In this document: positions 41,862 through 49,337 of the stretch, in pieces
How the letters are laid out: every line of letters starts with the position of its first letter
Numbering within the stretch: the first letter of the stretch is position 1
Source of the DNA: Sporocytophaga myxococcoides DSM 11118
Lineage (GTDB): Bacteria > Bacteroidota > Bacteroidia > Cytophagales > Cytophagaceae
Assembly (NCBI RefSeq): GCF_000426725.1
Contig: NZ_KE384560.1
Coordinates: 890,960 to 954,959 of the forward strand
Direction: 5' to 3'
DNA length: 64,000 bases
Notes under the pieces: generated by a model
What the model saw: only the letters and a program-made list of their open reading frames with translations
Databases searched by the model: none
Told to the model about the DNA's origin: nothing
Program-made: the position numbers and the translations under genes

Positions 41862-42950
41862 ATGGAAACAACAGTAAAAGACATTTTATTTTCATCAGCC
41901 AAAATTGGCGGATTTGAAATTAAAAATAGAATTGTTATGGCTCCTATGACAAGGTCAAGAGCAATCAATTCCATTCCGGGAGAAAATGTAGCAACCTACT
42001 ATGCTCAAAGAGCTTCTGCAGGACTCATCATTACAGAAGGGACTGCGCCGTCTGCTAATGGCATTGGCTATGCCAGAACTCCTGGTATTTTTACAAAAGA
42101 GCAAATTGAAAGCTGGAAGAGAGTAACAAAGGCTGTTCATAATAAAGGTGGAAAAATTGTAGTGCAATTGATGCACGTTGGTAGAATCGCACATCCGGCA
42201 AACATGTTACCAGGAGCCAGAATTGTGGCTCCATCTGCTGTTGCTTCAAAAGGTGAAATGTGGACTGACACATTGGGAATGCAGCCAATGCCTCAGCCAT
42301 CAGAGCTTACTGCAGAGGAAATAAAACAGACCATCGCAGAGTTTGCTCAGGCGGCTAAAAATGCTATAGAAGCGGGATTTGACGGTGTAGAACTACATGG
42401 AGCAAATGGCTATCTGATTGAGCAGTTTATCAATCCTACAGCCAATAAGAGAACGGATGCTTATGGTGGTTCAGCTGAAAATAGAAGCCGCTTTTTAATT
42501 GAAACGACCAAAGCAGTGATTGCAGCAATAGGTAAAGATAAAGTTGGTGTCAGACTTTCTCCATACAATACATTTAACGACCTGGAGCTATATCCAGAAA
42601 CTGCTGAAACTTATAAATACCTGGCTGAAGAACTAAACAAACTGGATATACTTTATCTGCACTTAATTGATGTTCTAGCAAATGCTTCAGAAGAAGGTCG
42701 TTCGTTGGTTTCAACAATAAGAAATACTTTTAAAAATACACTGATCCTTGCTGGAGGTTATGACAAAGCCAGCGCAGAACAGGCATTAGAAGAGGGTAGA
42801 GGAGATCTTGTTTCATTCGGCAGGTTCTTTATATCTAATCCTGATTTACCAGAACGTTTCAGAAAAGATGCTCCTCTTGCAGAAGGCAATCAGCAATTGT
42901 TCTATGCCGCTGGTGATGAAGGATATACTGATTATACTTCTCTAAATTAA
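41862..42950 (+). CDS. Old Yellow Enzyme family alkene reductase (NemA-like)
   Basis: A 362-residue FMN-dependent ene-reductase from the ATG at 41862 (METTVKDILF); a GTG at 41847 is in frame but less likely. It uses NAD(P)H to reduce activated C=C bonds or nitro compounds in the cytoplasm. Typical segments are IKNRIVMAPMTRSRA, QLMHVGRIAHP, GFDGVELHGANGYLIEQFI (His and Asn of HGAN bind the substrate carbonyl), KRTDAYGGSAENRSRF and LVSFGRFFISNPDLPER. A MarR regulator encoded just upstream likely derepresses it in response to electrophiles, as NemR does for NemA; this link is inferred. Confidence 0.95.
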   Translation: METTVKDILFSSAKIGGFEIKNRIVMAPMTRSRAINSIPGENVATYYAQRASAGLIITEGTAPSANGIGYARTPGIFTKEQIESWKRVTKAVHNKGGKIVVQLMHVGRIAHPANMLPGARIVAPSAVASKGEMWTDTLGMQPMPQPSELTAEEIKQTIAEFAQAAKNAIEAGFDGVELHGANGYLIEQFINPTANKRTDAYGGSAENRSRFLIETTKAVIAAIGKDKVGVRLSPYNTFNDLELYPETAETYKYLAEELNKLDILYLHLIDVLANASEEGRSLVSTIRNTFKNTLILAGGYDKASAEQALEEGRGDLVSFGRFFISNPDLPERFRKDAPLAEGNQQLFYAAGDEGYTDYTSLN

Positions 42951-42976
42951 TATTAACGCCACGTGAAGTTGAAAAG

Positions 42977-43006
42977 ACGTGCCGGAGCAATCCGGTGCGT
43001 TTTTTT
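42977..43006 (+). terminator. Intrinsic terminator after the Old Yellow Enzyme gene
   Basis: Arms ACGTGCCGG (42977-42985) and CCGGTGCGT (42992-43000) pair over 9 positions with two G-U pairs, then T7. Confidence 0.88.
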
Positions 43007-43020
43007 ATTTTAGGGGAAAA

Positions 43021-43123
43021 AAATAGCCTCTGTAATATTATAGAATTTAATTACTCCCAGTGATTAAACCTTTTAGTCCCATGGAAATAAAAAGTGAAAT
43101 ACATTTCCGCACAGAGGCTATTT
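43021..43123. ncRNA. Candidate structured RNA or element folding as a three-way junction
   Basis: A perfect 13-bp closing helix is formed by AAATAGCCTCTGT (43021-43033) and ACAGAGGCTATTT (43111-43123). Inside it are two more hairpins: TTTAATTACT/AGTGATTAAA (43046-43055 with 43059-43068, one G-U, CCC loop) and GGAAAT/ATTTCC (43083-43088 with 43103-43108, 14-nt loop). This gives a three-way junction of 103 nt in a 540-bp gene-free gap. It matches no RNA family I can name. The pairings are equally consistent with DNA (for example a miniature inverted-repeat element), and the strand is undecided. Confidence 0.5.
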
Positions 43124-43490
43124 AGCAACGAAAGAGCTAGTATTGATGAAATTAAACCTTGAAAGAAACCTCTTTTAGCCGTCGCTAAATCTAAGTTCGC
43201 TTTTTTTTCTAAAAAAATAAAAAAAACGAAGGGCTAATTTTATGAGTTTTTATGAAAGCCATTGATTTTTAGTAATCAAATTAAAAGCATTAAAATTTTT
43301 ATAATGTCAGTTTAATTTTACTCCCGGATCAGTTTATTTAATGGTTCTTGGGAACGATTTTTAATTTTGAAGTCTAATAGTTAAACTACTTTTATTCATA
43401 TGATAAAGAAGCATATGATTTAAATTGTGAATTTAATTTAGATAAATTTTTGTACCTCAAAATTGAGGTCCATACAAGCATTGGTACAAT
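43124..43490. other. AT-rich gap before the DNRLRE lipoprotein cluster
   Basis: No gene is seen. It holds a small hairpin TTTAGC-CGTC-GCTAAA (43174-43189), a T run (43201-43209) and long A/T tracts. The last 40 bp carry nested inverted repeats that touch the next start codon (listed separately). Confidence 0.6.
43450..43489 (+). promoter_or_regulatory. Nested inverted repeats in the leader of the first DNRLRE gene
   Basis: TTGTACC (43450-43456) pairs perfectly with GGTACAA (43483-43489), which ends one base before the ATG at 43491. Within it, CCTCAA (43455-43460) pairs with TTGAGG (43463-43468). The two pairings compete for CC, so this could be a protein-binding site or a two-state RNA hairpin covering the start site. 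Confidence 0.4.
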
Positions 43491-44171
43491 ATGGGTAAAC
43501 TTCTATCAATTTATTTTTTATTTATATTATTACTTCTAAACGGATGCATGTCTGATAAATCTCAGCTTGGCAACGCAAGACCGGATGGAAGCATAGATAC
43601 TATTGTCGTTAAGCCTGGTCCGGAAGGGAAAGACGCTATAGTCAGTTCATACTTTCCGGAAGAAAATTATGGAAATGTTTTATCGTTAAATGCAATGATC
43701 TCTAATATAGACAGAATCCCATATGTAGAAAGAGCTTATATAGACTTTGATCTTTCTTTAATTCCATCAGGGACTTCTATATTATATGCAGAATTGACAC
43801 TATATGCTGATACTGTTATAAAAACAGGAGGATATACCGGACATTCCACATCTTCTGCAGGTTCATATGGCCCCAACGAATGGCTTGTAGAAACAGTAAC
43901 GTCACCATGGGAGGAAAATACTATATCCTGGTTTAATGCCCCGGCAACTGATGTTTCATCAAAAATTAACTGCGCTTCGGCCACCACATTTTCTCAGAGT
44001 TATGCAATTAATGTTACTGAGTCAATAGCCCGGCAATTTAAGTATAGAGGAAGTGCATTTGGTTTCTTAATAAGGCTGAGGGACGAAAACGGAGCTCGTA
44101 AAATAAGTTTTTGTTCTTCTGATTATACTTTTCCTAAGCTCCGGCCTGAATTAAAAGTGGTGTATAAGTAA
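43491..44171 (+). CDS. DNRLRE-type lipoprotein, copy 1
   Basis: A 226-residue lipoprotein (lipobox LLNGC, Cys19). The body is one jelly-roll-like DNRLRE domain: VVKPGPEGKDAIVSSYFPE, RAYIDFDLSLIPSG, LTLYADT, TSPWEENTISWFNAP, INVTESIA, GFLIRL and SFCSSDYTFPKLRPELKV. Such domains are found in secreted carbohydrate-active and cell-wall proteins and some bind polysaccharide. Here each protein is just a lipid anchor plus this domain. It is the first of five tandem copies. Unlike copies 2-5 it lacks a second Cys right after the lipidated one (CMSDKS). Confidence 0.85.
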   Translation: MGKLLSIYFLFILLLLNGCMSDKSQLGNARPDGSIDTIVVKPGPEGKDAIVSSYFPEENYGNVLSLNAMISNIDRIPYVERAYIDFDLSLIPSGTSILYAELTLYADTVIKTGGYTGHSTSSAGSYGPNEWLVETVTSPWEENTISWFNAPATDVSSKINCASATTFSQSYAINVTESIARQFKYRGSAFGFLIRLRDENGARKISFCSSDYTFPKLRPELKVVYK

Positions 44172-44257
44172 GGGATATAATTATAAGAAGGGGTGGAGAT
44201 TAAAAAAAAATAAACAGAGGCAGTTTCTATTTATGTTGCCAGGAAAGATGGAGGACA

Positions 44258-44941
44258 ATGTGGTTCTTCATATTTATATCTCTGATATGTTTAGTGAGTT
44301 GTTCTAATCCTGTTTGTTTATCCCCTCTTGGAGGTGTCGATACAAAAGTGACAAGCAGATTTACTCTTATTATAAAGCCAGGATCAGAAGGCAAAGATGT
44401 AGGAGTGTCAACTTATTATCTTGAAGAAAATTTTAGCAGTGTTAAAAGCCTAAATGCTTTTACCCTATACTGAAAGAGGATATATTGATTTTGATGTAAA
44501 AGAATATTTGCCACCAGGAGTAAGGATAGTTGGTGCCTATTTGAAACTTTTTGCGGATACAATTAATAAAGGTCCCAGTATTACGGGTCCGCGTATTCCT
44601 GGTCATTCCGTTCAAAGTTATCAAGGAGTAAACTGAATAATGAATGGCAGATATTCAGAATAGTGAGTCCCTGAAATGAAAATGAGATAACATGGTTTGA
44701 TCAGCCGGAAGTGTCAATGACCGACGTTTTAAATTTGCCAGGAACCTCTGTTTATTGCTCAATCTTTTACTATTGACGTTACAGAGCATATCCGACAGAA
44801 ATATAAAGGTGTCCCGGGTATAATGGATTTATGATCAAAAATAAAGTTGAAAGTCCCTATCAATGTGTCGTTTTTTGTTCTTCGGATAGTGATCAGAAAG
44901 AATTACGACCGCAGCTGTTAGTGGAATATGAGAATGAGTGA
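44258..44941 (+). pseudogene. DNRLRE-type lipoprotein, copy 2, broken
   Basis: Starts normally (MWFFIFISLICLVSCSNPVC, lipobox LVSC) and follows the family through IIKPGSEGKDVGVSTYY and SLNA. A deletion and frameshift near 44460 then give a stop at 44471-44473. The family continues in another frame (PYTERGYIDFDV, LKLFADT) to a stop at 44634-44636. More pieces follow in changing frames: EITWFDQPEV, SFTIDVTEHI, FCSSD-like sequence, and a final LVEYENE with a stop at 44939-44941. At least three lesions are present, so it is a pseudogene. Its end overlaps the start of copy 3. Confidence 0.88.
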
Positions 44942-47218: not shown

Positions 47219-47797
47219 ATGCTGAAGGAAGCAGACATAATTAAAGGTTGTAAAGAGTATAATTCAGTTGCACAAAATGCATTATACAAAACATATGCGC
47301 CTAAAATGAAAGCTTTGTGTGTAAGATATTCATCAAATGAAGAAGAAGCAAAAGATCTGATGCAGGAAGGATTTATCAAAGTCTTTTCCAACATAAAATC
47401 ATATAACGGAAAGGGGAGCTTTGAAGGGTGGATTAAAAGAATTATGATCAACACGGCTATTTCTCATTATAAAAAGAATAAAAATAAATTTGCAGTAGAA
47501 GATATTTCTCTCATGAATTCCAAAGAGGTTGGATCGGAGCAGGAAGAAGAAGTTGAAGAAATATACTCAGAATATACTTCTGAAGATTTAATGAAAGCTC
47601 TGAACAGCTTACCGGAGCAATACAAATTGGTATTTAACCTCTTCTGTATCGAAAATCATTCTCATACAGATATAGCTCAATTGTTATCCCTGGATGAAAA
47701 GACTTCGAGAACGAGGCTTTTCAGAGCCAAAAAAATGTTAAAAGATTATCTGATCAACCTGTCTGGTAAGCGGTGGGTAAATTCTTCTGAAAGGTGA
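47219..47797 (+). CDS. ECF RNA polymerase sigma factor
   Basis: A 192-residue ECF sigma factor. Region 2: ALYKTYAPKMKALCVRYSSN, EEAKDLMQEGFIKVFSNI and FEGWIKRIMINTAISHYKK. Region 4: MKALNSLPEQYKLVFNLFCI and HTDIAQLLSLDEKTSRTRLF. This is the common Bacteroidota type found with an anti-sigma-like membrane protein and an outer-membrane protein, as here. The next gene begins 7 bp later. The adjacent DNRLRE lipoproteins are possible regulon members. Confidence 0.94.
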   Translation: MLKEADIIKGCKEYNSVAQNALYKTYAPKMKALCVRYSSNEEEAKDLMQEGFIKVFSNIKSYNGKGSFEGWIKRIMINTAISHYKKNKNKFAVEDISLMNSKEVGSEQEEEVEEIYSEYTSEDLMKALNSLPEQYKLVFNLFCIENHSHTDIAQLLSLDEKTSRTRLFRAKKMLKDYLINLSGKRWVNSSER

Positions 47798-49223: not shown

Positions 49224-49250
49224 TAGGCTGTAATAATACTATACGAATAA

Positions 49251-49281
49251 AAAAAGCTGATGAAATTATCATCAGCTTTTT
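49251..49281. terminator. Bidirectional terminator between the ECF operon and the protease gene
   Basis: GCTGATGA (49256-49263) pairs perfectly with TCATCAGC (49269-49276), flanked by A5 on the left and T7 on the right, so it can serve both converging operons. Confidence 0.88.
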
Positions 49282-49337
49282 TTATTCCAGACTTCAATAC
49301 TTTGTTCGATTAATTTTACAGAGTTTATCCGTTCAGA

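Follow-up and report, generated by a model that had tools for sequence, protein, structure and literature searches.

A conserved intergenic element of Sporocytophaga next to an Old Yellow Enzyme gene, predicted to form the core of a gene for a small non-coding RNA

What is the 103-nt element at 43021-43123 in the gap between two genes of Sporocytophaga myxococcoides, a member of the Cytophagaceae (Cytophagales) in the NCBI taxonomy? An initial annotation of the window, the whole 64,000-nt stretch of DNA analysed here, had drawn it as a three-way junction and proposed that it was an undescribed small RNA or riboswitch-like element, a divergent 6S RNA or a miniature inverted-repeat element. Upstream on the plus strand lie genes for a MarR-type regulator (PF01047) and then an Old Yellow Enzyme (OYE; PF00724). 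The downstream plus-strand gene, lipoprotein-like and matching CBM96, starts at 43491, and a further gene matching CBM96 starts at 44928. The element is outside both flanking genes, which bears out its placement in the gap as part of neither, and the ORF list holds no minus-strand frame of at least 80 aa between OYE and 43491. Farther downstream, 44230-44925 appears to be a decayed copy of a lipoprotein gene resembling its neighbours; no plus-strand frame of at least 80 aa was found between 44171 and 44928.

We conclude that this is a real, strongly conserved non-coding element at the level of the genus, and most likely a small RNA gene on the minus strand. The features discussed below are the following.

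43186-43193, minus strand: TAGATTTA, candidate -7 box, invariant in four genomes, with five of the six fixed letters of TAnnTTTG
43120-43190, minus strand: possible 5' hairpin, with arms 43180-43190/43120-43130 and 43170-43175/43131-43136
43132-43139, minus strand: TAGCTCTT, weaker candidate -7 box with four of the six letters; an RNA started from it would measure about 110 nt
43021-43123, minus strand: core of the element, with closing stem, two-sided internal bubble and apical stem in the consensus fold
43110-43123/43021-43034, minus strand: closing stem of 13 Watson-Crick pairs and one G-U
43082-43090/43051-43059, minus strand: apical stem of 9 bp, the conserved inner helix of the consensus fold
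43017-43023, minus strand: U-tract continuing the closing stem, read from the sequence as the probable 3' end of the RNA, with intrinsic termination
42977-43006, plus strand: OYE terminator, placed by eye from the sequence and convergent with the proposed RNA gene

At the OYE terminator, a terminator scan listed a terminator-like site on the minus strand only (42995-42982).

The perfect 13-bp closing helix claimed by the initial annotation was confirmed, its arms (43021-43033 and 43111-43123) being fully complementary and 77 nt apart. By itself this repeat is not overwhelming evidence, and it weighs less than the fold z-scores: when the 540-nt gap was shuffled 2000 times by dinucleotide, 28 of the shuffles contained a perfect inverted repeat of at least 13 bp within 130 nt. 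The window holds one other comparable repeat, a long perfect one at 49245-49287, which lies between convergent reading frames and is probably a terminator. The bare 103 nt fold with -27 kcal/mol on the plus strand (z -5.75) and -28.1 kcal/mol on the minus strand (z -3.84), and on neither strand was any of 200 shuffles as good. The claim that such nested helices are unlikely by chance thus holds for the 103-nt folds and less so for the repeat alone. Short flanks gave minus-strand z-scores of -2.73 in S. myxococcoides and -3.32, -3.65 and -3.66 in its congeners G002, G003 and G001, respectively. With wider flanks (191 nt) the folds were much less striking, at z -1.66 on the minus strand (12 of 200 shuffles as good) and -2.20 on the plus strand (6 of 200).

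Conservation was evaluated in four Sporocytophaga genomes, namely S. myxococcoides (6.34 Mb in 21 contigs) and the three congeners. Over the 103 nt, 100 positions in G002, 100 in G003 and 98 in G001 are identical to S. myxococcoides (95-97%), and 98 of the 103 are the same in all four species. The arms are identical at 26 of 26 positions in each congener, the 77-nt interior at 74 in G002, 74 in G003 and 72 in G001. For comparison, identity at the four-fold sites of OYE (from 41995 on) is 108/151 in G002, 82/151 in G003 and 88/151 in G001 (54-72%), and over 43131-43345, most of the remaining gap, it is 159/215, 157/215 and 158/215 (73-74%). The constraint on the element is strong across stems and unpaired parts alike. 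S. myxococcoides, G002 and G003 have small frames (at least 12 codons) in common, but G001 lacks one base and its frames are shifted; with no reading frame kept, the element is judged to be non-coding.

Two other patches of the region are conserved. The first, 42951-43006, includes the OYE terminator and is identical in all four species at 52 of 56 positions; the second, 43349-43378, is so at 24 of 30. This second patch, TGGGAACGATTTTTAATTTTGAAGTCTAAT, is identical to S. myxococcoides at 28 of 30 positions in G002, 29 in G003 and 26 in G001, despite the different downstream gene of G002, and we take it to resemble a promoter of the ECF sigma-factor type (GGGAAC, 16 nt, GTC). The promoter pattern has one match in the window, and the ORF at 47219-47797 reads as an ECF sigma factor.

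The four species known to carry the element all belong to one genus. A covariance model of it (R1), run on 19 genomes of the family, found all four Sporocytophaga at E 4.8e-29 or better; in the other 15 the best match (E 0.066 over 40 nt) was taken as chance. BLAST with a 196-nt stretch against 59 genomes gave strong matches in the same four, the next best being 36 nt long at E 0.0013. Pattern scans matched two Sporocytophaga sp. records, and a scan of viral contigs gave no match to the element.

These comparisons bear on the readings that require no RNA. Inverted arms around an AT-rich interior would suit a miniature mobile element, a reading that we find hardly credible. The search for further copies that the initial annotation had proposed returned one match per genome in all four Sporocytophaga genomes, with the OYE gene adjoining it in the three congeners as in S. 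myxococcoides, and the element is more constrained than this neighbouring gene. The miniature inverted-repeat element is therefore rejected. We also think it improbable that the element acts as DNA, as a site of binding or recombination flanked by its 13-bp arms. Such a site would account for arms that are perfectly conserved and for a core lacking double covariation, but the interior varies little more than the arms do (74, 74 and 72 of 77 identical), a U-tract stands on one side only, and there is a single copy per genome.

A riboswitch or cis-acting leader is unlikely as well, since the next gene on the minus side, OYE, runs in the opposite direction, with no minus-strand frame of at least 80 aa before it, and the plus-side gene is a different one in G002. 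The element is thus independent of which gene lies beyond the gap. This leaves the undescribed small RNA as the best supported of the options first proposed, given the strong conservation, the single copies and the fold z-scores. A conserved intergenic sequence with a terminator-like 3' end, here read from the sequence, is also what is seen for independent bacterial sRNA genes. Comparison with related genomes, which had been suggested as a check, yielded homologues in the four Sporocytophaga genomes and no compensatory changes: two analyses of the four species counted 0 of 23 and 0 of 34 core pairs with changes on both sides, the core being almost invariant. Covariation is not demonstrated, as shuffles of the 23-pair core equalled the observed values on every measure.

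If the element is transcribed, which strand does it use? The initial drawing corresponds to the plus-strand fold of S. myxococcoides, in which the closing stem encloses a hairpin containing the 10 bp (43046-43055/43059-43068, with one G-U and five further pairs added below) and a 6-bp hairpin. The two internal hairpins thus exist in this species, but on neither strand does the consensus fold of the four species contain the 6-bp hairpin, or the 10-bp one in the form first drawn. T43061 is C in all three congeners and places an A-C mismatch inside the 10-bp hairpin, so that the plus-strand three-way junction is not kept, and the strand and fold first assigned are probably wrong. The consensus fold of the minus strand (-29.1 kcal/mol, versus -27.0 for the plus strand) carries in addition a small 4-bp hairpin in the bubble.

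The minus strand is favoured by its U-tract and by one inner change that keeps a pair which the plus strand breaks. The tract, whose first three U can pair in the stem, has 7 U in S. myxococcoides and 6, 6 and 5 in the congeners. A simple terminator scan, whose loop limit is 8, does not list this site. Position 43056, the sole variable pair of the 9-bp helix, is C in S. myxococcoides and T in the other three species; on the minus strand the pair is U-G in S. myxococcoides and U-A in the others, on the plus strand C-A and U-A, respectively. The RNA is thus likely to be encoded on the minus strand, on strand evidence that is thin, with one informative core position. That the plus strand, or each of the two, encodes a small RNA we regard as unlikely. 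It would fit the better plus-strand z-score of the bare 103 nt (-5.75 vs -3.84), the closing stem being present on both strands and one cell of the 5' hairpin that pairs only on the plus strand. It must contend, however, with a closing stem followed by TTT only, with the OYE terminator immediately upstream, which leaves little room for a promoter, and with the 10-bp hairpin broken in 3/3 congeners.

Upstream on the minus strand, the possible 5' hairpin is less conserved than the core and overlaps the closing stem by four bases, for which the two would compete. Its fold z-score is -2.35 in S. myxococcoides, -0.20 in G002, where it has two bulges, -1.72 in G003 and -1.18 in G001. Its inner helix shows paired length changes among the species, which are weak evidence because the alignment was made by hand in A/T-rich runs; of the cells of the hairpin, two pair only on the minus strand, one only on the plus strand and two on neither. 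The -7 box consensus of the Bacteroidota is given as TAnnTTTG in PMC9723704. TAGATTTA is one candidate promoter, from which transcription would start near 43180 and give an RNA of about 164 nt. No full-consensus promoter was found near the core in all four genomes, and the candidate boxes are imperfect.

The shape of the minus-strand fold raises the question of 6S RNA, which is about 160-200 nt long. The element might be the 6S RNA missing from Sporocytophaga, shortened and diverged, which would bind RNA polymerase through open-promoter mimicry; we judge this a doubtful but not negligible alternative. At the gathering threshold no Rfam family matched in the window or in loci L003-L005, in agreement with the initial annotation, which had recognised no known family in it. 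Loose thresholds over 42900-43500 gave 18 matches, none to a 6S family and none credible. RF00013 had no match in the S. myxococcoides genome, and RF01685 (6S-Flavo) had four, all below the cut-off; the best of them (24.9 bits), the one inspected, lies inside an apparent response-regulator gene and was dismissed as chance.

Run on 295 genomes of the class, RF01685 reached E 0.01 or better in 21, two of them over the cut-off. Twelve of these matches were taken as loci, and a wider model (R2) was built from nine. In the order, 118 genomes were searched with R2 and 14 had a match at E 1 or better. Seven of the 14 belong to a single other family, f19 (E 9.4e-4 to 0.22); these seven loci (L055-L058, L060, L062 and L063) are apparent 6S genes, individually weak and alike in motif. 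A third model (R3), built from the seven f19 loci and seven earlier ones, matched two of 19 genomes in the family to which the window belongs, namely G008 and G009, and none in Sporocytophaga. The G009 match (E 0.369) falls within a long reading frame and was discarded as a 6S candidate. In G008, which is outside the training set, the match (46.9 bits, E 7.1e-5; L092, 1501-1642) is an apparent 6S RNA gene of one genus of the family. BLAST from L092 against the 19 genomes recovered L092 and otherwise nothing but short pieces, the best of them at E 0.0135. At the element, R2 gave 0 matches, and none of the 15 matches of R3, which reached at most 10.3 bits, overlaps it.

Like the element, 6S-Flavo RNA and the wider 6S loci are intergenic, with an outer stem running into a U-tract, a bubble and an apical stem. 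By eye, the closing stem leads straight into the U-tract in ten of ten 6S-Flavo-type loci (L043-L052), where it may double as terminator, and also in L092. For the element, the resemblance to 6S is one of shape only. Also consistent with a 6S relationship are the lack of an RF01685 match over the cut-off and of any match to RF00013, R2 or R3 in the S. myxococcoides genome, and the state of the zapA-rny gap. In L043, 6S lies between genes read as zapA and rny; zapA was matched in 18 of the 19 family genomes, and in all 18 too little space is left before the next gene (29-156 nt to the first ATG in 15 loci, and also short in the other three, the congeners). That 6S has gone from this gap and shrunk beyond recognition into the element, as a minimal polymerase-binding RNA kept in shape only, strikes us as quite unlikely. 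Against a 6S identity stand the core of about 112 nt, compared by eye with roughly 165-200 nt for the 6S loci, the lack of a ACTCAACA-like core motif, the failure of RF01685, R2 and R3 to match the element, and the ordinary length and motifs of L092, from another genus of the same family. The RNA would reach about 164 nt only with the upstream box as promoter, and the extra length would be the separate 5' hairpin. Moreover, a 6S gene undetected elsewhere in the genome may be a matter of mere divergence. The proposal of a divergent 6S RNA therefore survives in the shared shape and fails against every 6S model: the element may work like 6S, and on the sequence features tested it is not a member of that family.

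We regard it as probable, though far from certain, that the minus strand encodes a small non-coding RNA here, in a gene that is convergent with OYE and has the element as its core, and that the closing stem doubles as terminator. Transcription would start in the gap upstream on the minus strand, run toward the OYE gene and end where the closing stem meets the U-tract. The transcript, about 110 to 165 nt long, would fold into a closed stem and an apical stem separated by a large internal bubble. A single helix would thereby both close the molecule and terminate its transcription. We infer that the RNA would most likely act in trans as a regulator, its unchanging unpaired stretches (the 5' side of the bubble and the apical loop) pairing with target mRNAs or binding a protein.

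By its description in PMC7366714, Bacteroides GibS/BTnc035 is alike in being intergenic, conserved within one genus and provided with a likely intrinsic terminator; GibS was shown experimentally, whereas the RNA proposed here is predicted from sequence. The portions of the open-licence literature covered, on small, non-coding or 6S RNA in Sporocytophaga and Cytophaga and on 6S RNA in the Cytophagales, describe no such RNA. In the Cytophagaceae the element would represent a small RNA gene that no Rfam family covers, and it is a concrete candidate for the 6S RNA not found in Sporocytophaga. If confirmed, it would offer one clean locus for testing RNA-based regulation in this group.
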